This document shows positions 2,254 through 20,577 of a DNA stretch of 64,000 nt, piece by piece. The position numbers and the translations under genes were made by a program. The stretch spans positions 62,001-126,000 of the forward strand of contig NZ_JACWMW010000004.1 in NCBI RefSeq assembly GCF_014773275.1, in the 5' to 3' direction. The first letter of the stretch is position 1, and each line of letters begins with the position of its first letter. The stretch comes from Mucilaginibacter rigui (lineage in GTDB: Bacteria > Bacteroidota > Bacteroidia > Sphingobacteriales > Sphingobacteriaceae). The notes under the pieces are model-generated. The model saw only the letters and a program-made list of their open reading frames with translations. It was not told where the DNA came from and did no database searches.

Positions 2254-3031
2254 AATAGCCGTTGTTTTTTGCATCCTGGCACTGGTTGCCTGTAAATCGA
2301 AAAAGCTGGTTGTTGTAAACCGCCCTACCACCGCAGTAGATTCTGCCGCAATTAATAAAGAGAATAGTATTCATGCAAGGCTGGCTGCTATCCAGTCGCA
2401 GCAGGTTTCGTTTAATACCTTCTCGGGCAAGGCAAAAACCAAATTGGATATAAACGGCAACAGTAATGATGTTACGCTAAACATCCGCGTAGCGCGCGAC
2501 CAAAAGATCTGGATCTCGGTAACCGCTATTATTGGTATAGAAGTAGCCCGTGCGCAAATCACGCCCGATAGTATTATTGTCGTGAACCGGTTGCAAAGTG
2601 TTTATCTTAAGAAACCGTTTAGCTATGTGTACACCTATGCCAGCAGGCAAATTACCTTTAAAACACTGCAAGCATTACTGGTTGGCAATGCCATCCCCGA
2701 GGTGCTGAACAGCAAGCCTGATTTTGATGCCGAGGGTAATAATACTGTACTAAGCGGCACTTTGCAGGATCTGGTATACAAGCTTTTGTTAGGCCCTGAT
2801 ATGAAAGTTACGCAAACCAACCTGTCAAACCAGTTTGGTGGTAAATCCTTACAGGTGGCCAATAATGTTTTTATACAGGCCGATAACCGGGTTATCCCTT
2901 CGCAGATAGATATTTCATCAACAGCGGGCGATAAAAAGATCAGGTTAAACCTGCGTTATACACAGGCCGAGTTTGATAAGCAACTCGATTATCCTTTTAG
3001 TATCCCAAAAAGTTACGAACCTGCTAATTAA
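2231..3031 (+). CDS. DUF4292 outer-membrane lipoprotein (LolB-like)
   Basis: 266 residues with a lipoprotein signal peptide: basic start, hydrophobic core, and lipobox LVAC with the lipid-bearing Cys at residue 21. The mature part has alternating beta-rich segments (for example KAKTKLDINGNSNDVTLNIR) like the half-barrel of DUF4292, a Bacteroidota family related in fold to LolA/LolB lipoprotein carriers. The likely role is lipoprotein handling or outer-membrane maintenance. The start codon lies inside the end of the TPR gene (23-bp overlap). An EnvC-like gene follows after 16 bp, so the three genes form one envelope operon. The family assignment is from memory of the sequence type. Confidence 0.75.
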   Translation: MKRNILNKIAVVFCILALVACKSKKLVVVNRPTTAVDSAAINKENSIHARLAAIQSQQVSFNTFSGKAKTKLDINGNSNDVTLNIRVARDQKIWISVTAIIGIEVARAQITPDSIIVVNRLQSVYLKKPFSYVYTYASRQITFKTLQALLVGNAIPEVLNSKPDFDAEGNNTVLSGTLQDLVYKLLLGPDMKVTQTNLSNQFGGKSLQVANNVFIQADNRVIPSQIDISSTAGDKKIRLNLRYTQAEFDKQLDYPFSIPKSYEPAN

Positions 3032-3047
3032 ATTATATTTTTGGTGA

Positions 3048-4340
3048 ATGAAATTTTTTAGAGCCGCATTATTTCTTGTTTGCGTATTTGCAGCTACCGG
3101 TGTTTTTGCACAAAGCAGTGCCGAGCTTAAACGCAGGCGCGATAAATTAACCGATGAGTTAGAGCAACTTAACCGCGAGTACCAGGAAACGGCAAGCAAT
3201 AAAAAAGTATCATTAAAACAGCTTAACATACTTAAAGCACAAATAAACCTGCGCGAAGAAAAGATAACCAATATCAATTCAGAGGTAAGAAACTTAGATA
3301 ATCAAATCTCTGAGAGCAATAATACCGTACGTAGTTTACAAAGCCAGTTAGACCAGCTTAAAAAAGAATACGCAGGCATGGTTCTTTTTGCTTATCGTAA
3401 CCAAAGTGCCTACAATAAACTGATGTTTATTTTTGCATCAAAAGACTTTAACCAGGCATACAGGCGTTTAAAGTATTTACAGCAGTTTGGTACTTATCGC
3501 GAGCGGCAGGCCGGTTATATACAGGGCACACAAAAAGATCTGCATGTTAAGATAGTTGAGCTGGATAAGAACAAAAAAGAAAAAAGCGACCTGCTGCAAA
3601 GCCAGGAAAAAGAGAAAGAAGAGTTAGGAAAAGCTAAAAATAACCAGGTAAAAGTAATTACCGACCTGTCTAAACATCAGGGAGAGCTAAAGCAGCAGCA
3701 AAAAGACGTACGTAAAAGGATAGCTGCGGCTAACCGCGAGATACAGAATACGATAAGGCGCGAAATTGAAGAGTTAAGGCGCAAGGCCGAAGCAGAAGAG
3801 AGGGAAAGGGCCCGCATAGCCGCCGCGAAAGCGAAAGCCGAAAACCGTGAGGTAGTAGCCCCAACCAAAAAAGCGATAACCAAAAACTCAACAACAAGTG
3901 AGATCTTGAACTCGACACCTGAAGCGGCTAAACTGTCTAACGACTTTTTAGGCAACAGGGGGCGTTTGCCATGGCCGGTAGCAACAGGCCAGTTAATTCA
4001 TGGGTTTGGTAGCTATAAAGAAGATGGTATAAGCATTGATAACACCGGGTACGAGATAAGGACCAATAATGGGGCACCGGTTAGGGCCGTATTTGACGGA
4101 ACGGTGAAAACCATTGTTGATTTAGGCGGCAGTTATTTGGTGATCATTATACATGGGGAGTACTTTACATCTTACCAGAATTTAAGAACGGTTAACGTTA
4201 CTAAAGGGCAAAAAGTAAGTACTAAACAAACTATTGGTACTGCAGCGCTTGATCAGTTATCGGGCGATGCAACCATCATATTCTCTATCAATAAGGGCAG
4301 GGATTCGGTAGATCCTAAAATGTGGCTTGCACCAAATTGA
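3048..4340 (+). CDS. envC: EnvC-like murein hydrolase activator (degenerate LytM/M23)
   Basis: 430 residues. A signal peptide (cleavage near VFAQ) is followed by a long coiled coil at about residues 22-270, rich in K/E/Q, and a C-terminal LytM/M23-type domain at about 305-430. Active M23 peptidases have zinc ligands in HxxxD and HxH motifs. Here the HxH position reads IIFSIN and no HxxxD is visible, so the domain is probably not a peptidase. That is the layout of EnvC, which activates cell-wall amidases during division. It is the third gene of the TPR-DUF4292-EnvC operon. The start at 3048 gives a clean signal peptide. Confidence 0.85.
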   Translation: MKFFRAALFLVCVFAATGVFAQSSAELKRRRDKLTDELEQLNREYQETASNKKVSLKQLNILKAQINLREEKITNINSEVRNLDNQISESNNTVRSLQSQLDQLKKEYAGMVLFAYRNQSAYNKLMFIFASKDFNQAYRRLKYLQQFGTYRERQAGYIQGTQKDLHVKIVELDKNKKEKSDLLQSQEKEKEELGKAKNNQVKVITDLSKHQGELKQQQKDVRKRIAAANREIQNTIRREIEELRRKAEAEERERARIAAAKAKAENREVVAPTKKAITKNSTTSEILNSTPEAAKLSNDFLGNRGRLPWPVATGQLIHGFGSYKEDGISIDNTGYEIRTNNGAPVRAVFDGTVKTIVDLGGSYLVIIIHGEYFTSYQNLRTVNVTKGQKVSTKQTIGTAALDQLSGDATIIFSINKGRDSVDPKMWLAPN

Positions 4341-5203: not shown

Positions 5204-6628
5204 ATGGCTAAAAACTATACCTCTTATATAGAAATTAAGAGCGGGTTGAAAAGTGGGGAGATCACGGCTGAAAGCCTGGTAAAAGGTTACCTTCAGCAGA
5301 TAAAAACCAACACACATTTAAACGTGTTTAACGAGGTTTTTGAAGATGAGGCACTTGCCTCTGCAAAAAAAATTGATGCACGCATTAGCAACGGCACTGC
5401 CGGTAAGCTTGCCGGGATGGTTATCGCTATTAAAGATAACATTTGCTATAAAGGGCACAAGGTTTCCGCATCATCCAAAATTTTAGAAAATTTTACATCT
5501 ATATATTCAGCAACTGTTGTTGAGCGCTTGCTTGCGCAGGATGCCATTATTATTGGCCGCTGTAACTGTGATGAATTTGCTATGGGCGCCGCTAACGAGA
5601 ATTCGTTTTTTGGCCCGGTAAAAAATTATGCTGATGTAACCCGTGTTTCGGGTGGTTCATCGGGCGGCTCGGCAGTGGCGGTACAAGCCGGCATGTGCCA
5701 CGCCGCTCTCGGTACAGATACAGGTGGTTCGGTAAGACAACCCGCATCGTTTTGCGGGGTTGTCGGTTTAAAACCTACTTATGGCCGTATCTCGCGCCAT
5801 GGTGTAATCAGCTACGCCTCGTCATTTGACCAGGTAGGCCCGTTAACCAAATCAGTATCAGATGCGGCATTACTGCTTGAGGTTTTATCCGGGGTAGATG
5901 AATACGACAGCACGCTGTCGCAACACACCGTACCTGCTTCTGCCGATCTCAAAAAAGAAACAGGTAAAAAAAATATCGCCTATTTACAGGAAGCCTTATC
6001 AAGCCCGGGTGTTGACGCGGATGTAAAAGCCACCCTTACAACTTACATAGAAAAACTGCGTGCCGATGGCCACACGGTAAAGCCTATAACATTTGAATAC
6101 CTTGAATACCTGGTACCAACTTATTATATATTGGCCATGGCCGAGGCTTCATCAAACCTTGCCCGGTACGATGGTGTACATTACGGCTATCGTAGCCCCA
6201 ACGCTACCGACCTGCAATCAACCTACAAACTAAGCCGGTCCGAAGGTTTCGGTAAGGAAGTGAAACGCCGCATTATGCTGGGTACGTTTGTACTAAGCGC
6301 CGGGTATTACGATGCGTATTATGCCAAAGCCCAAAAAGTGCGCAGGCTTATCCAAAATAAAACCAACGAGATTTTAAAAGACTTTGATTTTATACTGACA
6401 CCCACTGCGCCCGAACCTGCCTTTGCGCTTGGTGTAAAAGAAAAAGACCCTGTGGTTACTTACCTGCACGATATTTTTACAGTGCAGGCCTCGTTGGTGG
6501 GCATGCCTGCCATTTCGCTTCCGGCAGGCAATAACAATAAAGGTTTGCCGTTAGGGTTACAATTATTAACTAAAAGTTTCGACGAGCAGGCGCTGCTTAA
6601 TTTTTCCGAATATTTTATGCAGCTATAA
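5204..6628 (+). CDS. gatA: Asp-tRNA(Asn)/Glu-tRNA(Gln) amidotransferase subunit A
   Basis: 474 residues, normal for GatA. The amidase-signature triad is visible: Lys77 in AIKDN, the cis-Ser in GGSSGGS (Ser152), and the nucleophile Ser176 in DTGGSVRQP. GatA releases ammonia from glutamine and channels it to GatB, which amidates mis-acylated Glu-tRNA(Gln) or Asp-tRNA(Asn). gatB and gatC are not in the window. The last 100 bases of this gene are repeated exactly at 8919-9020, next to the lytic transglycosylase gene, showing that the DNA between was inserted or duplicated here. The reading frame itself is intact. Confidence 0.95.
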   Translation: MAKNYTSYIEIKSGLKSGEITAESLVKGYLQQIKTNTHLNVFNEVFEDEALASAKKIDARISNGTAGKLAGMVIAIKDNICYKGHKVSASSKILENFTSIYSATVVERLLAQDAIIIGRCNCDEFAMGAANENSFFGPVKNYADVTRVSGGSSGGSAVAVQAGMCHAALGTDTGGSVRQPASFCGVVGLKPTYGRISRHGVISYASSFDQVGPLTKSVSDAALLLEVLSGVDEYDSTLSQHTVPASADLKKETGKKNIAYLQEALSSPGVDADVKATLTTYIEKLRADGHTVKPITFEYLEYLVPTYYILAMAEASSNLARYDGVHYGYRSPNATDLQSTYKLSRSEGFGKEVKRRIMLGTFVLSAGYYDAYYAKAQKVRRLIQNKTNEILKDFDFILTPTAPEPAFALGVKEKDPVVTYLHDIFTVQASLVGMPAISLPAGNNNKGLPLGLQLLTKSFDEQALLNFSEYFMQL

Positions 6629-6630
6629 TT
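6529..6630 (+). repeat. 102-bp direct repeat, copy 1 (3' end of gatA)
   Basis: These 102 bases, covering the last ~33 codons and stop of gatA plus 2 bases, are identical base for base to 8919-9020. The copies are 2390 bp apart in the same orientation. Identity stops sharply at both sides. Confidence 0.97.
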
Positions 6631-6759
6631 TTATTGTGGTGAATTAAATTTTGTGGATAATACTAAAAAAACATAGAGTGTTTTAACCTCTTAAGTTTTA
6701 CTTGTTTTCATTTGTATTTAATGATATATTCACTTCGTTAAAAATATTTACCTGTCACA

Positions 6760-8373
6760 ATGAAAAAACTTTATCCTAAGCAACAGTGCTTTTTTAAGCT
6801 ATGTATTGTATTACTTATCGCAGTTGTTGCTGTAATTTATGGTTGCCGTAAGGATATTTCCAAGCCTGGGGATAATCCCACTGCAACTATTACCGATCCT
6901 AAAATTGCCAAAGCAAAAAGCTGGTACGAAACTAACTACTCAAAACCCGGAGTAAAACCTTCATCGCAAAACACCAATGCCGTAGGCGATGACTTTGACC
7001 TGAGCCAATTTTTTAGTCCCGACTGGACAGCAGCCAAAAACTATACCCGCTTTAATGACGATGTTATAGAAATGCCGGTGGATGCCGCTTCGGCAATAGG
7101 GCTTAAAGTGGGTTCTGCATCGCAAAGTAACAGCCGTAGTTCGGTATTGATATTAAAGCGGGGCGATACTTACAAAGCCTATGTAATGACGATTGTTGGC
7201 TACCCCGAATATCTTAACGCCGATACATCAAAACTGGCGAATAACAGCTATGGCAAGCACGACGCTAACTTTAGCGGTATGGTATACTATACCACCCCGC
7301 AGGGCGAATTTGTAGACGGCTATACTTACAAAAACGGCGTTATTAAAGGGCAATTAGTAGATAACTATACTGCTACAACTACAGGGGGGCAGGCCATACA
7401 GAGCATAACCCCCAACTCGTACCAGGCAATTCAGGTTTGTACGGCATGGTACCAAAAAGTTGGCGAAGTTTGGGTATACTTAGATACACAATGCCATACA
7501 GAAGTTATTGAAGTGCCTGATCCAAGTACCCCTCTGCCACCAATTACCCCACCAAGTAGCGGTGGCGGCGGCGGCGGAGATTCACCAGGCAACCCGAATC
7601 CAGATTGTCCCCCGGGCAGTACGATACAAAGCGTAAAAGGCGGTAATGTTATCAACACCTTAAAAATAATGTTACGCCCGCCGGGCGATGGTGGTTTCCC
7701 GCCACCTGGTGGAGGAGATAATCCATGTACAATAAAACCGGTTGAAGACCCTTGTGATAAAATTAAGAGACAAAAAGCAAATGCTGATCTTAAAAGTCAA
7801 TTAACAGATTTAAAAAACAAACTTAATCTTAATTATGAAGCGGGATACGTGAAATTATCTAATTCCGCTCCACAGTATATAACAGGAACACCAAACACCC
7901 TTTCATGGAATGCGCCACAATTAGCAACTATTGTAAACGGTTCAATGGAGTATATAAATCATAATCACTACACAGCCCCTCAGTCATTGTCAACCTTTAG
8001 TGAAGATGATATAAAGGCGTTTTATCAGTATATTCATTATAATAAAGTAGTTAATGAAAATACGTTTACATTTTCGGTTGTTACCAGCCAAGGAATGTCG
8101 TATTCTTTAGTATTAAATGATAAGCAAAAATTCGATTCGTTTTATAATACCTATTTTTCAGACGCTATTGGTCAAAATCTTTTTAATGGCCTTTATAATA
8201 GTTATATTAGTGCAACAAATTCGCCAACAACTAATGAAGCAAATTTACTTTCAATGGTAAACTTACTTAATATGGGAGTGTCAGTAATGAAAGGCAATAC
8301 AGATTTCTCGAATTGGGTCGTTTCGTCGTATGACCCTATAACTAACACCATAACCTTTAAAAATTGTAACTAA
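6760..8373 (+). CDS. Large modular lipoprotein with JAMM-like C-terminal motif, unknown function
   Basis: 537 residues. A basic start and hydrophobic helix lead to lipobox VIYGC (Cys29), so it is predicted to be membrane-anchored. Residues ~50-255 form a domain I do not recognise. Then comes a Pro/Gly linker (~255-325), followed by a Lys/Asn-rich C-terminal domain containing INHNHYTA and, ten residues after the second His, SEDD. This HxH-x10-SxxD spacing resembles the metal site of JAB1/MPN+ (JAMM) peptidases, whose usual form is HxH-x7-SxxD; activity is inference. Base composition turns AT-rich at about 7740, exactly after the linker, as in proteins whose C-terminal module has been swapped. 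A small secreted-protein gene starts 2 bp later. The gene lies inside the 102-bp repeat bracket. Confidence 0.6.
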   Translation: MKKLYPKQQCFFKLCIVLLIAVVAVIYGCRKDISKPGDNPTATITDPKIAKAKSWYETNYSKPGVKPSSQNTNAVGDDFDLSQFFSPDWTAAKNYTRFNDDVIEMPVDAASAIGLKVGSASQSNSRSSVLILKRGDTYKAYVMTIVGYPEYLNADTSKLANNSYGKHDANFSGMVYYTTPQGEFVDGYTYKNGVIKGQLVDNYTATTTGGQAIQSITPNSYQAIQVCTAWYQKVGEVWVYLDTQCHTEVIEVPDPSTPLPPITPPSSGGGGGGDSPGNPNPDCPPGSTIQSVKGGNVINTLKIMLRPPGDGGFPPPGGGDNPCTIKPVEDPCDKIKRQKANADLKSQLTDLKNKLNLNYEAGYVKLSNSAPQYITGTPNTLSWNAPQLATIVNGSMEYINHNHYTAPQSLSTFSEDDIKAFYQYIHYNKVVNENTFTFSVVTSQGMSYSLVLNDKQKFDSFYNTYFSDAIGQNLFNGLYNSYISATNSPTTNEANLLSMVNLLNMGVSVMKGNTDFSNWVVSSYDPITNTITFKNCN

Positions 8374-8374
8374 T

Positions 8375-8860
8375 ATGAAAACCCTTTTAATAATATTATC
8401 AATCATATTTTGTGGCTGTGCAAATGCACAAATAAAAACATTAGACTTAAATCATGGTAAATATCTTGAAAATTCGTTTAAGGATGATTTTTTAGGTAAA
8501 TGGAAAGCCAATAAAAATGATTTCAAGGTCAGTATCAGTAAAGAAAAAAAGCATATTAAAAGAGGAACTATGGATGTTTACATAGATTTCTTAAATATCA
8601 GGATCACACATTTTTTAAGCAACGGGGTACAAGTAGCTAATAGATTTACTTCGGAAATGTCCTTAATCTCTGTTGGAAATAGCGACAGCTTTACAGGTAC
8701 TTTTAGAGATACAATATCTGGAAACAATATTAAAATAAACTTAAAACGTATAAATAGTAATGAACTTTTGTTTACTGCAAGTCTACCCGAAATAGATTTT
8801 ACAAACCATCCAGAAAATGGCACTATTTTTCCAAGAAAAGTAAATTTAGTAAGGGATTAA
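8375..8860 (+). CDS. Small secreted or lipid-anchored protein, partner of the preceding lipoprotein
   Basis: 161 residues. The leader (LIILSIIFCGCANAQ) could be cut as a lipoprotein at Cys or by signal peptidase I after ANA. The mature part is beta-rich and Lys/Asn-rich; the segment FLGKWKANKNDFKVSISKEK resembles the start of DUF6705-type Bacteroidota proteins, which I cannot confirm. It starts 2 bp after the stop of the large lipoprotein, so the two are surely co-expressed. By position it could be an immunity or accessory protein of that lipoprotein; this is inference. The sequence is AT-rich like the C-terminal part of its neighbour, in contrast to the surrounding core genes. Confidence 0.6.
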   Translation: MKTLLIILSIIFCGCANAQIKTLDLNHGKYLENSFKDDFLGKWKANKNDFKVSISKEKKHIKRGTMDVYIDFLNIRITHFLSNGVQVANRFTSEMSLISVGNSDSFTGTFRDTISGNNIKINLKRINSNELLFTASLPEIDFTNHPENGTIFPRKVNLVRD

Positions 8861-8918: not shown

Positions 8919-9020
8919 CAATAACAATAAAGGTTTGCCGTTAGGGTTACAATTATTAACTAAAAGTTTCGACGAGCAGGCGCTGCTTAATTTTTCCGAA
9001 TATTTTATGCAGCTATAATT
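8919..9020 (+). repeat. 102-bp direct repeat, copy 2 (gatA 3' fragment)
   Basis: An exact copy of 6529-6630. It is a dead fragment of gatA lying 58 bp before the lytic transglycosylase gene. It marks the right border of the two-gene insert and suggests that gatA and the transglycosylase gene were once direct neighbours. Confidence 0.97.
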
Positions 9021-13347: not shown

Positions 13348-16300
13348 TTGATTAAAAATTTTACTACCAGGCTTTTTGTAGTTATACTCTTTGTATCTGC
13401 TTTAAGCGGGGTGGGAAAGTTATACGCACAACAAACACCGGTTCAGCCTACGCAAACCGGTCAGCAGTTCCCTACGCAACAGCAACCGCAATTTCCAAAT
13501 CAACAGCAGTCACAGTTCCCCAATCAGCAACGTACAGGGCAACAATCACAGCAAGCCACTAATCAGCAGCAAACGCAGTTCCAGCAGCCCGGCCAGCGCC
13601 CGGTAGCAACAAAGCCGCAGCAAACTGCGCCGGTTGCCGCCAAGGCAGATACCGGTAAAAAACTTGGCCCCATCAGTTTAACTGAGCCAATGAGCAAAAG
13701 GCAGCGCGAGGGGATTTTTTTTATCGACCCTCCGGGATTGATACGTACAGTTGAATATGATGCCGCTACAAATAAATATGTTTTATATGAACGGTTAGGT
13801 AACCTGCTTTACCGTGCGCCACAATATTTAACCTTTGGCGAATATTTAATGCTGATGCAAAGGGGCGTAAAGCGCGAATATTTTAAACAACTGGCAGATA
13901 ACTATGCCTATGAATCACAACAGCCGGGCTTTATACCGCAGATGAAGATAAGGAGCAAAACTTTTGAACAGATCTTTGGCAGCTCAAATATCAACATACG
14001 CCCGCAAGGGTCGGCAGAGGTGATCCTGGCCGGGCAGGTCAATAAAAACGAAAACCCGCTGTTTAATACCCGCCAACGTAACCAGTTTAACTTCAATTTC
14101 GATCAGCGGATCCAACTGAACGTTACCGGTGATATTGGCGATAAATTAAAGATCACCACAAATTATAATACCGAGGCGCAGTTTCAGTTTGAGAATCAGA
14201 TAAAGCTTGATTACACGGGGCATCCGGACGAGATCATCCAAAAGATAGAGGCGGGTACGGTTAGTATGCCGTTAAATACCACACTTATATCGGGCAGCCA
14301 GGCCTTGTTTGGTGTTAAAACCAAGCTAAAGTTTGGTAAGCTTGATGTAACCAGTATTTTCTCGCAACAGCGGTCGCAGGCAAAAAATATCACCATAAAA
14401 AACGGCGCGCAGGAGCAAAATATCAACATCACCGCTGCCGACTACGAAAGCAATAAACACTTTTTTTTATCGCAGTACTTCCGTAATAACTATAACAGGG
14501 CGCTGGCTAATATCCCTATTATCAGCTCTAACATCAACATTACAAAAATTGAGGTTTGGACAACCAACCGTACCAACGTCACAACCGACTCGCGCGATAT
14601 ACTGGCATTTTTAGATTTGGGCGAAAATAAACCCTTCAATACCTCAGTTGTAACAGGTGGTACAAGTGCTTACCCTGCAGGGTTTAAAGGCCCCGGCTTT
14701 CCGCAGCAATCAAATAACTTGTTAAATGTGTTGCCTGCCACTGCGCGTAATACTAACTCAAACGATGTGGCCAACCTTTTCAGGACCACGCGTGCTACAG
14801 ATAACTACGCCAAGCTTACCTATGCCCGTAAATTAACCGATAAAGAGTTTACCCTGCACCCGCAATTGGGTTATATATCATTAAATTATCCTTTAAATAA
14901 CGATGAGGTTTTGGCTGTTGCTTATCAGTACACCGTAAATGGTGTGCAGTACCAGGTGGGTGAGTTCTCGAGCGACAGGGCGGTTGACCCCGGCACCCCC
15001 ACCGTTTTATTTACCAAATTATTAAAAAACGAATTACTTAAAACTGACCTGCCTACCTGGGACCTGATGATGAAGAACATCTACTCGTTAGGCGCGTACC
15101 AGATAAGCTCAACAAATTTTAAGTTGAATGTATCCCGTTTGGATGATAAATCGGGCATCGAGAAAACCATTATGGACGAGGGGCAAAACACCAAAAGTAA
15201 ACGCTGGATGCAGCTTACAGGTGTAGATAACCTGGATCAACAAAATGATAAACGCCCGGATGGGTATTTTGATTTCTTGGAAGGTATCACCATCGATTCG
15301 CAAAACGGGCGCATTATGTTCCCGGTACTGGAGCCCTTTGGCAGCGACCTGGCTAAACAGTTTATCCCATCAGAAACCGACCTGGTGGCCCGGTATGTTT
15401 ATCAGCCGCTTTATGATTCTACAAAAACTATCGCGCAGCAATTTTTTCCTAAACTAAACAGGTATTTAATAAAGGGTACCTACACTTCGCAAAGCGGATC
15501 GGAATACCAGTTGAATGCAGTTAACATCCCGCAAGGGTCTGTTGTGGTTACGGCCGGTTCGGTTAAACTACAGGAGGGTAATGATTATACTATTGATTAC
15601 AGTGCGGGCCGTATCCGTATATTAAACCAGGCTTTGCTGGCATCGGGCCAAACCATCAATGTTAAGTTAGAGAATAACGAACTTTTTGGCGTACAGCAAA
15701 AATCATTGTTCGGCACCAGGCTTGATTATCATTTAAATGATAAATGGGCATTGGGCGCAACCATGATGCATCTTACTGAGCAGCCCATAACGCAAAATGA
15801 AATTGCCGGCGAGGAATCTATCTCAAATACCATCTGGGGTTTTGACGCTAACTATAGTTCGCAATCAAGGTTTTTAACCCGTTTGGTTGATAAGCTGCCA
15901 TTTATACATACCAAGGCGCCATCAAGCATAAACTTTAGCGGCGAGTTTGCCCAGTTACTACCGGGTAGCCCCGGCGCATTGAATTTTGCCGGCTCAAAAA
16001 ACGGTACTTCTTACCTGGACGACTTTGAGAACAGCCGTTCTGTTATCGATATAAAAAGTGCTATCAACTGGCAAATATCCGGCACACCGCAAATGTTTAG
16101 CGAGTCGGCCAATTTTGATGACCTAAGCTACGGCTATAACCGCGCCCGCTTGGCCTTTTACAACATCGACCCAATATTTTACACCAATTCGGGCTCTGTT
16201 AATGTATCGCGTAACGAGCTTTCTAACCATTACGTAAGGCAGGTTATAGAGCAGGAGGTGTTTCCATATAAACAATCAACCACCGGCCAGCCGTTAAGCT

Positions 16301-19300
16301 TATCAACCCTTAACCTTGCTTTTTACCCAACCGTGCGCGGGCCTTATAACTTTACCACTACAGGCCTTAATAATGATGGCACATTGCAGAACCCCAGGAA
16401 CCGCTGGGGAGGGATGTTCCGTAAGTTAGAAACCAACGATTTTGAATCGTTAAACGTAGGATATATAGAGTTTTGGATATTAGACCCGTTTATTTATAAA
16501 CCAAACTCAACAGGGGGCGATCTGTACTTTAACCTGGGGAGTGTATCTGAAGATATATTAAAGGATGGCAGGAAAAGCCTGGAGAATGCTTTACCGGTTG
16601 ATGGTTTAACCGCCGATAAGGTGGATGAGACCAACTGGGGGCGCGTATCAAAATTGCAGCCGGTTATTAATGCTTTTGATAACGACCCCAATTCGCGCAG
16701 GCTGCAGGATGTTGGTTTGGACGGACTGAATGACGACGGCGAAAAAGTGAAATTTGCACCTGTTATACAACAAGTGCAAGGCCAGCTAAACCAACAAGCC
16801 GCCGCCGTTTTTGCCGCCGATCCATCATCGGATGATTACCGTTATTACCAGGGCAGGGAACTTGACCAGGCCGGTGCCGGTATATTAGAACGCTACAGCC
16901 GTTATAACGGCACGGAAGGCAACTCTAAAACGGCCGAACAATCGCAGGCAGAGCTTGGGATCCAAACGTCGGCATCAACATCATTGCCCGACGGGGAAGA
17001 TATAAACCGCGATAATAACATGAGCCAAACGGATGAGTATTTTCAATACAAGGTATCTATAAGGCCGCAGGATATGGTGATAGGGCAAAATTATATTAAT
17101 GATAAAATAACCACTGCTGTAAAGTTGCCAAATGGCACCACTGAGGCGGTTACCTGGTACCAGTTCAGGATCCCGATAACCGATTACCAAAGCAAAGTAG
17201 GGAACATACAGGATTTTAAAGCCATCAGGTTTATGCGGATGTTCATGACCAATTTTGCCGATACATCTGTTTTGCGTTTTGCCACACTGCAACTGGCCCG
17301 CAGCGAATGGCGTACTTTTAACATTGAGAATAACCCGCTTAACGTAATTGCCGATCCGGCCATCACCAACCCTGTAATAGATGGGTCTACCCTTGATGTG
17401 CAGGCGGTTAATATTGAAGAGAACGGTAACCGCACGCCTATACCTTATGTAGTGCCGCCGGGCATTAACCGCCAGCGCAACTACAATAACCTGCAAACAG
17501 ATACCAAGCTTAACGAGCAATCGCTATCGTTAAATGTGGCCAACCTGCGCGATGGTTACTCAAGGGCGGCGTTCCGTACCTTCTTTAATGATTTGCGCGC
17601 ATACAAACGCATCCAGATGTTTATACATGCTGAAGGCGAGAATTTAAAAGATAAAGACCTGAATGGTTTTGTACGCCTGGGGGTTGACTACCAGGATAAC
17701 TATTACGAATACGAGGTGCCTTTAACTATAACCCAACCCGGCACCCGCGACCCCGGCGCTATATGGCCTGCAAATAACGAGCTTGACCTGCAACTTTCAT
17801 TGTTGGTTGATGCCAAACTTGCGCGTAACAACGCCAAACTAAACGGGCAGCCGTGGCCGTTCACCATCCCTTTTGTGTATACAGACGGACTTAATAAAGT
17901 AACCATTAAAGGGCAGCCCGATCTGAGCCGCCTGCGTACCATTATGCTGGGTGTGCGTAACCCCCTAAAAGGTACCGGTGCAAGTAATGACGATGGTTTA
18001 AATAAAACAGGTACGGTTTGGTTTGATGAACTGCGCTTAACTGATTTTGACCAGCGTGGAGGCTGGGCCGCAACAGCAAGGGTAGATGCCGCCCTGGCCG
18101 ATTTTGCAAACATAACCGTAGCGGGCAGTAAAAGCACCATTGGTTTTGGTACGCTGGATTCGAGGGTGGGCGACCGTAACCGAAGTGATAACCAGTCTAT
18201 CGATGCATCTGCAAGTGTGGAGCTGGGTAAGTTTTTCCCTGAGAAAAGTGGTATTCGCATCCCTGCTTATGTAAATATCTCAACCCAGATAAGTACGCCG
18301 CAGTATGACCCCGGGTCGCCCGATGTGGAGCTGAAAAAGTCGCTTGCCAACGCGCCAACCAGCCAGGCACGCGACTCGATAAAAAATGTAACAAAGGATT
18401 TTACCACGCGCAAAAGCATCAACTTTACCAACGTACATAAAGAGCGCACCAATCAATCAGCACCGGTGCATGTGTGGGATATTGAGAACTTTGCCGCCAC
18501 ATATGCCTATACCGAGTACCAACACCATGATTTTAATGTTGAGAACGATTTTTCTAAAACATACAGAGTAGCGTTAAGCTATAACTATAACAAGGAGCCC
18601 AAATATTACACGCCTTTTGCCAAAATTATTAAAAGCAACTTGCTTGCCCTGGCACGCGATTTTAACTTTAGCATCCTGCCGTCGCGGTTAAACTTCAGTA
18701 TTAGTTTCGATCGTTTCTACTCAGAGAACACCCTGCGTAATAACGACCCGAATAACTTTATACCGATACCAACATCGTTCAATAAAAACTTTAATATAAC
18801 CCGGGTTTACGGGATAGGATGGAACCTGTCGAAAGGGTTAACGCTGGATATCGACGCGACTAACCTATCGGTTGTGGACGAGCCTGCTGGACGTTTAAAC
18901 GGACTAAAGCGCGATACCCTTTGGGAAAACCTTTGGAAACTGGGCCGAACCACAAACTATAACCACACTATAAACTTAAATTATACGGCACCTATAAACA
19001 AAATACCGGGGCTTGACTGGACCGCCCTTACCGTGCGTTACAGTACCAATTTTAACTGGCAAACCCAGCCCGAATTTGCCATTAATGATCCAACTTATGA
19101 TGTGGGTAACAGCATCCAGAATGCGCGCACCATACAGCTAAACCCTAACCTTAACTTTGCTAATTTTTATAATAAGTTTGGCGCGCTGCGTAAAGGCAAA
19201 AATGAAAAGACAGGCGCCGCTAAATTCTTTTTGGGAATTTTAACCGGAATAAAAAATATAAGTGGTACGTACACCCGTACCGAGGGAACTTTCCTGCCGG

Positions 19301-20577
19301 GTTACCTGCCGCAATCAAACTTTTTTGGGCAGGATGTTAATTACAATGCGCCAGGTATAGGCTTCCTGTTGGGCAGCCAGGCCGATCTGCGTGCCAAAGC
19401 GGTAGCAAATGGATGGATCACAAAAGACACCCTGCAAAACCAACTGTATATAAAATCATTTAATGAAGATATCCGCCTGCGTAGCATTATAGAACCAATA
19501 GCCGACCTGCGGGTAGAACTCATAGCCTTTAAAACGCAGGACCGTAACTATCAAACCAATTTTAAATACCTTGCCAGTACCAATAGTATAGAAAACCTAA
19601 GCCCGGTAACTACGGGTACTTACAGTATCTCGTACATGTCGCTTGCTACTGCGTTCGCAAAATCAGGGGGGGTAAATAACACTTCGGCTACATACCAAAA
19701 GTTTTTAGAGAATCGTGCCATTATCTCCCAAAGACTGGGGCCTAAAAACCCTAATTCGGGTGGGGCAACCGGCGGCTTTGCCGATGGGTATGGCCCTAAT
19801 GCGCAAAATGTATTGGTGCCAGCTTTCCTGGCGGCTTATGCGGGCAAAGATGCAGGCTCGGCAAGTACAAACCAGTTCCCCAAAATACCCATACCAAACT
19901 GGCAAATATCATATGGTGGTTTAGGCAAGCTGCCATTCTTCACAGATCTTTTCGATTCATTCGATCTGAAGCATGGCTACCGGTCGTCATATACTGTGGG
20001 TAGTTTTACTACTTTGTTGCAATACCAGGAAGCCAACGGTGCGGCAATTTCAAGGGATGCCAATAATGATTTCCTGCCTTTTTACCAGTTTTCGCAGGTG
20101 GCCATATTTGAGCAATTTGTACCCTTGCTTGGTGCTGATGTGCGTTTCAAAAACAGCATGACGGCCAACTTTGAATACCGCAAAACCCGCTCATTAAACT
20201 TAAGCTTGTTAAATAGCCAACTGGCACAGCAGGAAGAAAATATTTTGGTTTTTGGGTTTGGCTATCGCCCTAAAAATTTCAGGATGCCATGGGGGTTATT
20301 CGGCACCGGTAACCGTACCGATAATGATATAAACTTTAAACTTGATGTAGCCGTACGTGATAACAAAACATTGATTTACCGTGCCGATGTAGCAGCGGCT
20401 GAAGTATCATCGGGTGCAAAAAATATCACCATGCGTCCCTCTATTGATTATGTGATAAATCAGCGTTTTAATCTTAACCTGTTTTACGATAGTAATATTA
20501 CCAAGCCGTATACCTCGCAGTCGTTTAATACATCGTTTACCAACTTTGGTATTAATTTAAAGCTCTTGTTGCAGTAA
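13348..20577 (+). CDS. sprA: SprA, type IX secretion translocon / gliding motility protein
   Basis: 2409 residues. SprA is the very large outer-membrane beta-barrel through which type IX secretion substrates cross the outer membrane; it is also needed for gliding in Flavobacterium. After a signal peptide (residues 1-27, ending KLYAQ) comes a Gln/Pro-rich low-complexity stretch (~28-95), then the long SprA_N regions and repeated amphipathic beta-strands to a C-terminus typical of barrels (NFGINLKLLLQ). No in-frame ATG precedes the signal peptide; the start is TTG at 13348, with an in-frame stop 12 bp upstream. The gene alone occupies over 7 kb and follows ruvA closely. Confidence 0.93.
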   Translation: MIKNFTTRLFVVILFVSALSGVGKLYAQQTPVQPTQTGQQFPTQQQPQFPNQQQSQFPNQQRTGQQSQQATNQQQTQFQQPGQRPVATKPQQTAPVAAKADTGKKLGPISLTEPMSKRQREGIFFIDPPGLIRTVEYDAATNKYVLYERLGNLLYRAPQYLTFGEYLMLMQRGVKREYFKQLADNYAYESQQPGFIPQMKIRSKTFEQIFGSSNINIRPQGSAEVILAGQVNKNENPLFNTRQRNQFNFNFDQRIQLNVTGDIGDKLKITTNYNTEAQFQFENQIKLDYTGHPDEIIQKIEAGTVSMPLNTTLISGSQALFGVKTKLKFGKLDVTSIFSQQRSQAKNITIKNGAQEQNINITAADYESNKHFFLSQYFRNNYNRALANIPIISSNINITKIEVWTTNRTNVTTDSRDILAFLDLGENKPFNTSVVTGGTSAYPAGFKGPGFPQQSNNLLNVLPATARNTNSNDVANLFRTTRATDNYAKLTYARKLTDKEFTLHPQLGYISLNYPLNNDEVLAVAYQYTVNGVQYQVGEFSSDRAVDPGTPTVLFTKLLKNELLKTDLPTWDLMMKNIYSLGAYQISSTNFKLNVSRLDDKSGIEKTIMDEGQNTKSKRWMQLTGVDNLDQQNDKRPDGYFDFLEGITIDSQNGRIMFPVLEPFGSDLAKQFIPSETDLVARYVYQPLYDSTKTIAQQFFPKLNRYLIKGTYTSQSGSEYQLNAVNIPQGSVVVTAGSVKLQEGNDYTIDYSAGRIRILNQALLASGQTINVKLENNELFGVQQKSLFGTRLDYHLNDKWALGATMMHLTEQPITQNEIAGEESISNTIWGFDANYSSQSRFLTRLVDKLPFIHTKAPSSINFSGEFAQLLPGSPGALNFAGSKNGTSYLDDFENSRSVIDIKSAINWQISGTPQMFSESANFDDLSYGYNRARLAFYNIDPIFYTNSGSVNVSRNELSNHYVRQVIEQEVFPYKQSTTGQPLSLSTLNLAFYPTVRGPYNFTTTGLNNDGTLQNPRNRWGGMFRKLETNDFESLNVGYIEFWILDPFIYKPNSTGGDLYFNLGSVSEDILKDGRKSLENALPVDGLTADKVDETNWGRVSKLQPVINAFDNDPNSRRLQDVGLDGLNDDGEKVKFAPVIQQVQGQLNQQAAAVFAADPSSDDYRYYQGRELDQAGAGILERYSRYNGTEGNSKTAEQSQAELGIQTSASTSLPDGEDINRDNNMSQTDEYFQYKVSIRPQDMVIGQNYINDKITTAVKLPNGTTEAVTWYQFRIPITDYQSKVGNIQDFKAIRFMRMFMTNFADTSVLRFATLQLARSEWRTFNIENNPLNVIADPAITNPVIDGSTLDVQAVNIEENGNRTPIPYVVPPGINRQRNYNNLQTDTKLNEQSLSLNVANLRDGYSRAAFRTFFNDLRAYKRIQMFIHAEGENLKDKDLNGFVRLGVDYQDNYYEYEVPLTITQPGTRDPGAIWPANNELDLQLSLLVDAKLARNNAKLNGQPWPFTIPFVYTDGLNKVTIKGQPDLSRLRTIMLGVRNPLKGTGASNDDGLNKTGTVWFDELRLTDFDQRGGWAATARVDAALADFANITVAGSKSTIGFGTLDSRVGDRNRSDNQSIDASASVELGKFFPEKSGIRIPAYVNISTQISTPQYDPGSPDVELKKSLANAPTSQARDSIKNVTKDFTTRKSINFTNVHKERTNQSAPVHVWDIENFAATYAYTEYQHHDFNVENDFSKTYRVALSYNYNKEPKYYTPFAKIIKSNLLALARDFNFSILPSRLNFSISFDRFYSENTLRNNDPNNFIPIPTSFNKNFNITRVYGIGWNLSKGLTLDIDATNLSVVDEPAGRLNGLKRDTLWENLWKLGRTTNYNHTINLNYTAPINKIPGLDWTALTVRYSTNFNWQTQPEFAINDPTYDVGNSIQNARTIQLNPNLNFANFYNKFGALRKGKNEKTGAAKFFLGILTGIKNISGTYTRTEGTFLPGYLPQSNFFGQDVNYNAPGIGFLLGSQADLRAKAVANGWITKDTLQNQLYIKSFNEDIRLRSIIEPIADLRVELIAFKTQDRNYQTNFKYLASTNSIENLSPVTTGTYSISYMSLATAFAKSGGVNNTSATYQKFLENRAIISQRLGPKNPNSGGATGGFADGYGPNAQNVLVPAFLAAYAGKDAGSASTNQFPKIPIPNWQISYGGLGKLPFFTDLFDSFDLKHGYRSSYTVGSFTTLLQYQEANGAAISRDANNDFLPFYQFSQVAIFEQFVPLLGADVRFKNSMTANFEYRKTRSLNLSLLNSQLAQQEENILVFGFGYRPKNFRMPWGLFGTGNRTDNDINFKLDVAVRDNKTLIYRADVAAAEVSSGAKNITMRPSIDYVINQRFNLNLFYDSNITKPYTSQSFNTSFTNFGINLKLLLQ

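Follow-up and report, generated by a model that had tools for sequence, protein, structure and literature searches.

A predicted surface lipoprotein toxin with a replaceable JAMM-fold domain and a DUF6705 partner in Mucilaginibacter rigui

The window, i.e. the whole stretch of 64,000 nucleotides of Mucilaginibacter rigui DNA analysed in this work, carries two adjacent genes encoding a 537 amino acid lipoprotein and a small secreted protein of the DUF6705 family. With a probability that we put at nearly 0.8, the pair is a polymorphic toxin-immunity module, in which a JAMM-fold tip would act on the envelope or periplasm of related neighbouring cells and the DUF6705 protein would neutralise it. 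Carriers of the N-terminal part of the lipoprotein swap their C-terminal domains, these domains are paired with specific partner genes, the domain present in the window combines a JAMM fold with an invariant site, and the gene pair is inserted between two genes which are neighbours in related genomes.

Gene organisation of the locus

The pair is composed of the following elements.

6760..8373, + strand: lipoprotein gene, predicted toxin, 537 amino acids (open reading frame and sequence comparison)
6760..6846, + strand: type II signal peptide, predicted from sequence to end at the lipidated Cys29 (IYGC followed by RKD, mature start C-R-K-D)
6844..7557, + strand: constant N-terminal module, to about residue 255 (profile search; no Pfam family)
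7530..7743, + strand: linker rich in Pro and Gly (paralogue comparison)
7744..8370, + strand: replaceable C-terminal JAMM-fold domain (CTD), residues 329-537, 209 residues (profile, alignment and AlphaFold2 model)
8375..8860, + strand: DUF6705 (PF20448) secreted protein, 161 amino acids, predicted cognate immunity protein (Pfam, above cut-off)

The original prediction, made from the sequence of the window, had described an open reading frame of 537 residues with an N-terminal module, a Pro/Gly linker and an AT-rich C-terminal domain, and this description is accurate. GC content drops at about position 7744 from 45.7% (nucleotides 6760-7744) to 31.6% (7745-8373), and the CTD starts at EDPCDKIK. 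In the downstream gene, which starts 2 nt past the toxin stop, GC content is 28.6%. Searches of Pfam and NCBIfam with the whole toxin, the CTD and the constant module assigned no family.

The constant module is present in 28 of the 201 genomes sampled from the family, and within Mucilaginibacter a profile search found it in 55/149 genomes. Comparison with a paralogue (dN 0.05, dS 0.35) indicates purifying selection. Its AlphaFold2 model has a pLDDT of 68 and the best Z score, 5.0, is to unrelated barrels; since model confidence is low and there is no clear fold match, no fold is claimed for this module.

In most carriers of the constant module the lipidated Cys is part of the sequence C-[RK]-K-[DE]-x. 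The published minimum of the surface export signal (LES) of Bacteroidota lipoproteins is K-(D/E)2; the C-R-K-D-I of the toxin, with one acidic residue only, resembles this minimum and does not fully meet it, so that the match to a canonical LES is partial. SusD proteins of the same M. rigui genome carry C-K-K-x-x-[DE]. From this signal the toxin is predicted to be lipidated and carried to the outer membrane, and a lipid-anchored, probably outward-facing location at the cell surface appears plausible. No obvious type IX sorting domain was seen in the toxin. About 5 kb away the window encodes a very large secreted protein (13348-20577), which by eye we take to resemble SprA of the type IX secretion system.

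The JAMM-fold tip

Five elements of the CTD stand out in the alignment with its relatives.

7753..7755, + strand: Cys332 (CTD C4), at the N-terminal border of the domain, may form a disulfide with Cys536 (CTD alignment)
7837..7839, + strand: Glu360 (CTD E32), putative catalytic base (invariant, 30/30)
7960..7968, + strand: His401-x-His403 (CTD H73 and H75), putative zinc ligands (30/30)
7999..8010, + strand: Ser414-x-x-Asp417 (CTD S86 and D89), JAMM motif (Ser 29/30, Asp 30/30)
8365..8367, + strand: Cys536 (CTD C208), C-terminal edge of the CTD (CTD alignment)

The sequence HNH followed ten residues later by SEDD had been pointed out as close to the metal site of JAB1/MPN+ peptidases. HNH corresponds to residues 401-403 and the gap is exactly ten. 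Conservation was read from 30 CTDs, 17-28% identical to the one in the window and aligned by overall homology; as Glu, HxH and Asp are invariant and Ser is kept in 29 of these 30 sequences, the motif is more than chance. The Cys near each end of the domain is kept in at least 90% of the 30 tips. Neither this pair (C4 and C208) nor the upstream Glu, nor the direct repeats around the insert described below, had been part of the original prediction. Classical JAMM proteins have the spacing HxH-x7-SxxD, whereas the CTD in the window has HxH-x10-S-x2-D and the gap ranges from 6 to more than 20 among its relatives. On account of this non-canonical spacing we limit the claim to a JAMM-fold domain, as distinct from a classical MPN+ domain.

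The AlphaFold2 model of the CTD (pLDDT 91.7, pTM 0.88) was compared with known structures, and the fold turned out to be related to JAMM. In VIA-align the best match is Sst2/AMSH (Z 8.1, 146 residues, 4.3 A), next is PfJAMM1 (Z 7.2), and then come Rpn11, BRCC36, CSN5, EMC8/9, Prp8 and the bacterial BubCD. The 50 entries listed are all JAMM/MPN chains, as assigned from their titles; Z scores of about 8 are middling. Foldseek with the same model gave nothing significant, with no match under E 0.1, and the matches above came from the VIA re-alignment. When PDB sequences were searched with the profile of the CTD, a single match at E 0.58 was obtained, which was ignored. The JAB families of Pfam and NCBIfam do not match the window's own CTD, and some of the relatives have weak Pfam matches to Prok-JAB (0.002) and, in two relatives, to DUF4329 (4e-5), which overlaps Tox-JAB-2 of Zhang et al.

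With AMSH/Sst2, PfJAMM1, Rpn11 and other JAMM peptidases the CTD has in common the fold and the E...HxH...SxxD site; it differs from them in sequence (about 8-14% identity), in spacing, in being part of a protein with an export signal and in the Cys pair at the domain ends. Model and site together suggest a JAMM-fold domain which is likely to be a zinc enzyme, most likely a metallopeptidase.

Since the best structural match is a deubiquitinase, the lipoprotein could also be seen as an effector directed against eukaryotes such as amoebae or plants, i.e. a JAMM deubiquitinase displayed on a surface lipoprotein in the manner of the Amoebophilus APD effectors. The combination of lipobox, constant domain and variable effector is indeed known from Amoebophilus, where APD1/2 are lipobox carriers with a constant domain, but the likeness to JAMM enzymes is at the level of the fold only (about 11% identity) and an immunity-like partner, which host-directed effectors do not need, is present nearly everywhere. 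We regard such a role as highly improbable.

Exchange of the C-terminal domains

The original prediction had proposed the layout of a polymorphic toxin, and a search for proteins sharing the N-terminal module gave many different CTDs followed by different downstream genes. One example is a paralogue on another contig of the same genome (G000:C6). It shares module and linker, but neither its CTD nor the small secreted genes downstream are those of the window, its partner belonging to a different family present in three tandem copies. BLASTN aligned the two loci with 88.7% DNA identity over window positions 6747-7782 and found nothing past it, so that homology stops at about 7782, just past the linker. 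Within the aligned part one tract is identical.

7079..7385, + strand: 307-bp tract identical to the G000:C6 paralogue, with diverged flanks (dS about 0.35)

Identity over 307 bp amid flanks of such divergence points to recent gene conversion or recombination. A third toxin locus of this genome (G000:C6, 684-686 kb) is frame-broken and has an HExxH tip and several orphan small secreted genes.

The survey of tips covered 57 distinct intact carriers of the constant module, 52 of them with a close downstream gene. Instead of always carrying the same domain, the 57 carriers have CTDs which form at least 14 clusters; the kinds of tips include HExxH (a large group, 25), JAMM groups, ZnPLC-like, papain-like and REase-like tips and several without known type. 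The 52 carriers with a close partner comprise 14-18 CTD clusters and 25 partner clusters, and the distance between toxin and partner is -46 to +45 nt in all but one of them. A hydrophobic N-terminus is present in 50/52 partners.

Each of the 11 partner families with more than one member is confined to a single CTD cluster, and ten of the 11 stay pure when CTDs are clustered more strictly. When the CTD-partner pairing was shuffled, none of 20,000 permutations reached 11 (mean 1.8, maximum 7). In one carrier with a REase-like tip (L072) the gene that follows scores above the curated cut-off for Imm49 (E 3e-10), a curated immunity family of Pfam, and this partner is an independent anchor for the toxin-immunity biology of the carrier family. 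It has no signal peptide, for which reason carriers of the constant module may also deliver toxins to the cytoplasm.

The HExxH metallopeptidase-like group (L035, L036, L038, L040, L049 and others) is the commonest tip and is combined with at least eight partner families; the representative examined had no Pfam assignment. At loci L054 and L070 a tip of no known type, possibly membrane-active, is combined with a partner of about 142-156 amino acids which is predicted to cross the membrane several times.

Distribution of the JAMM tip in Bacteroidota

A profile built from seven CTDs of the type present in the window was used to search 395 genomes of the phylum and matched 33 places in 16 genomes, with up to six in one genome. 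It also finds the tip of the M. rigui paralogue (E 1e-7); the two tips are therefore homologous, though highly diverged. Outside the genus, window-type tips are carried by several unrelated N-terminal families in other families and orders, none of which matches the Mucilaginibacter module, and in one case the carrier has a non-lipoprotein signal. The CTD had no match in plasmid and phage collections.

At L112, in a genome of the same class, a full-length gene is followed by truncated cassettes of linker, tip and partner, and at L113, in another genome, two adjacent genes have a common N-terminus and different tips. Orphan tip-immunity cassettes or immunity arrays are found at L112 and L219. 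Three marks of a polymorphic toxin system, namely a constant region with different tips, a tip-specific neighbouring gene and orphan cassettes or arrays, are present.

The carriers are lipoproteins whose tips look like hydrolases, and their genera have many digestive enzymes at the cell surface, which would also be compatible with a surface hydrolase serving nutrient acquisition or defence, the small protein being its inhibitor or chaperone and the variety of CTDs reflecting a range of substrates. Against this stand the Imm49 partner, the strict pairing of tips and partners across 11 families or more, the tandem partner arrays, the orphan cassettes, the very low GC content of the tip and the frequent broken copies, all of them typical of conflict systems, and we consider it improbable.

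DUF6705 as partner of the JAMM tip

All nine partners of window-type tips which were examined match DUF6705 (E up to 0.1), and a DUF6705-like partner lies beside 26/28 window-type tips. Seen from the other side, 47 of the 51 DUF6705 genes in the 395 genomes are located within 3.5 kb downstream of a JAMM tip detected by the profile. Two of the remaining four (L217 and L218) follow JAMM tips which the profile missed. Another, at L215, is the second of two small secreted genes that come after a lipoprotein gene (2890-4146, - strand) with an M23-type-looking C-terminus, a possible further toxin of the same class, and for the DUF6705 gene at L216 no toxin open reading frame was found in the stretch covered. 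JAMM tip and DUF6705, present in 16 and 17 genomes respectively, co-occur in 15 (P 4e-24). Given the position downstream of JAMM tips and the co-occurrence, DUF6705 is very probably the immunity family of this tip. The PDB sequence search with a DUF6705 profile gave nothing under 0.08, and the literature searched does not name DUF6705.

Insertion at the 3' end of gatA

The pair is located between gatA and an mltD-like gene and is flanked by a perfect direct repeat.

6529..6630, + strand: upstream copy of the 102-bp direct repeat, the last 100 bp of gatA with the stop codon plus 2 nt (102/102 identical to 8919-9020)
8919..9020, + strand: downstream copy of the 102-bp repeat (3' end of gatA), next to the start of the mltD-like gene (9079)

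In 29/29 relatives the insert is absent and the mltD-like gene follows gatA after 60-170 nt, and by this comparison the toxin-partner pair is an insertion. There is no integrase gene in the insert of the window.

Other toxin pairs are flanked by direct repeats as well. These repeats correspond to the 3' end of nusG (112 bp, 95%), to the 3' end of aspS or its terminator (113 bp, 88%, and 85 bp, 95%, in two genomes of two species with different tips) and to two bare intrinsic terminators (44 bp and 30 bp); the names nusG and aspS are what we take these flanking genes to be from reading their sequence. Repeat-flanked pairs outside the window include L075, L116/L263, L253, L038 and L049, with repeats of 30-113 bp. 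Direct repeats were detected at 8/81 toxin loci and at 4/134 controls (P 0.06), and these controls are not clean because all four control matches sit within toxin/immunity arrays. We regard flanking direct repeats as recurrent and not as the rule.

Relationship to known systems

Polymorphic toxins, lipoprotein toxins, lipobox carriers with constant domains and JAB tips on RHS carriers are each already known separately. Tox-JAB-1 with Imm65 and Tox-JAB-2 (DUF4329) have in common with our CTD a JAB/JAMM tip with E, HxH, S and D (PMC3482391). Tox-JAB-1 is described as restricted to Bacteroidetes and located on RHS carriers, its partner Imm65 having a signal peptide and a lipobox (PMC3482391); here, in contrast, the carrier is a short lipoprotein and the partner is DUF6705.

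In architecture the pair matches SitA of Myxococcus, a lipoprotein toxin with an N-terminal escort, a variable tip and an adjacent immunity gene (PMC5562445, PMC8546572). The tips of SitA, however, are cytoplasmically acting nucleases whose delivery depends on exchange of outer membrane by TraAB, and searches beyond Myxococcales gave no SitA homologues (PMC5562445, PMC8546572). BcpT of Phocaeicola is a Bacteroidota lipoprotein of about 500 amino acids, whose C-terminal part is active and is freed by proteolysis, and its immunity protein BcpI is a small lipoprotein encoded downstream, probably facing the periplasm (PMC9308784). Likeness to BcpT is by description of size and layout, and BcpT is described as a single plasmid-borne toxin. 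As in BcpI, the DUF6705 partner has an export signal and no acidic signal after the Cys. The system of Burroughs et al. 2025 (PMC12419801), like the one described here, has a lipobox carrier, a constant domain, variable tips and membrane or periplasmic immunity, the last being BamE-like. Its constant domain is cystatin-like; the low-confidence model of our module gave no clear match to this or another fold. The tips listed for it (Lipocone, ColM-like, START-like, papain-like and VanY-like) include no JAB, and no link to Mucilaginibacter or DUF6705 is made.

The suggestion that the effector is of a type not usually described therefore stands for the combination and not for its parts, since lipoprotein toxins (SitA, BcpT) and JAB-type tips (Tox-JAB-1/2) are each on record. 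The literature searched gave no match for this combination, for a role of DUF6705, for a Mucilaginibacter module with at least 14 tips or for insertions at 3' ends. The pair would belong to a large family of such predicted weapons in Bacteroidota which seems not to have been described.

Proposed function and site of action

In the mechanism which we propose, the toxin would sit in the outer membrane by its lipid, and the constant module would anchor or escort the replaceable tip. The tip, a putative disulfide-braced JAMM-fold zinc enzyme, would attack related cells nearby, at a target in their envelope or periplasm, following proteolytic release as in BcpT or membrane transfer as in SitA. DUF6705, exported to the periplasm, would neutralise the tip, so that the producing cell and its kin are protected. 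New tips could arise by swaps of CTD-immunity cassettes at the boundary between the linker and the DPC sequence, together with recombination between paralogous modules, and housekeeping genes also receive whole pairs, as units, at their 3' ends.

Extracytoplasmic action is favoured by the hydrophobic N-termini of 50 of the 52 partners and by the Cys pair. The JAMM tip might on the other hand be a nuclease acting in the cytoplasm, the exported partner blocking its entry or binding it on the way in. Zhang et al. (PMC3482391) regarded toxin JAB domains as RadC-like and possibly nucleases, SitA lipoprotein toxins do get to the cytoplasm, and the same constant module bears the REase-like tip whose partner has no signal peptide, which makes cytoplasmic delivery possible. 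The partners of JAMM tips, however, have signal peptides, the CTD is bracketed by the conserved Cys pair, and the tips by which it is replaced are mostly HExxH, papain-like and ZnPLC-like, which suit targets in the envelope. For these reasons we prefer proteolysis and judge a nuclease unlikely, though less so than the hydrolase or host-directed roles considered above.

A wider generalisation is offered tentatively, as somewhat short of an even chance: throughout the phylum Bacteroidota, surface lipoprotein toxins may carry extracytoplasmic, disulfide-braced JAMM tips with DUF6705 as immunity and their gene pairs may spread as units of 2-3 kb that lack an integrase gene, integrating next to housekeeping genes at the 3' end or the terminator, with direct repeats of up to about 110 bp left behind.

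These observations give the unannotated family DUF6705 a testable function and connect, as one predicted weapon system, a JAMM tip family which Pfam does not cover with a constant module of lipoproteins and with the partner proteins. To our knowledge most of what is known of JAMM enzymes concerns intracellular peptidases of the ubiquitin type, and if one of them acts in the envelope of rivals, the question of its substrate is posed directly. Present in about one third of the sampled Mucilaginibacter genomes and spread over Bacteroidota, such systems could shape competition between strains in soil and plant-associated communities.
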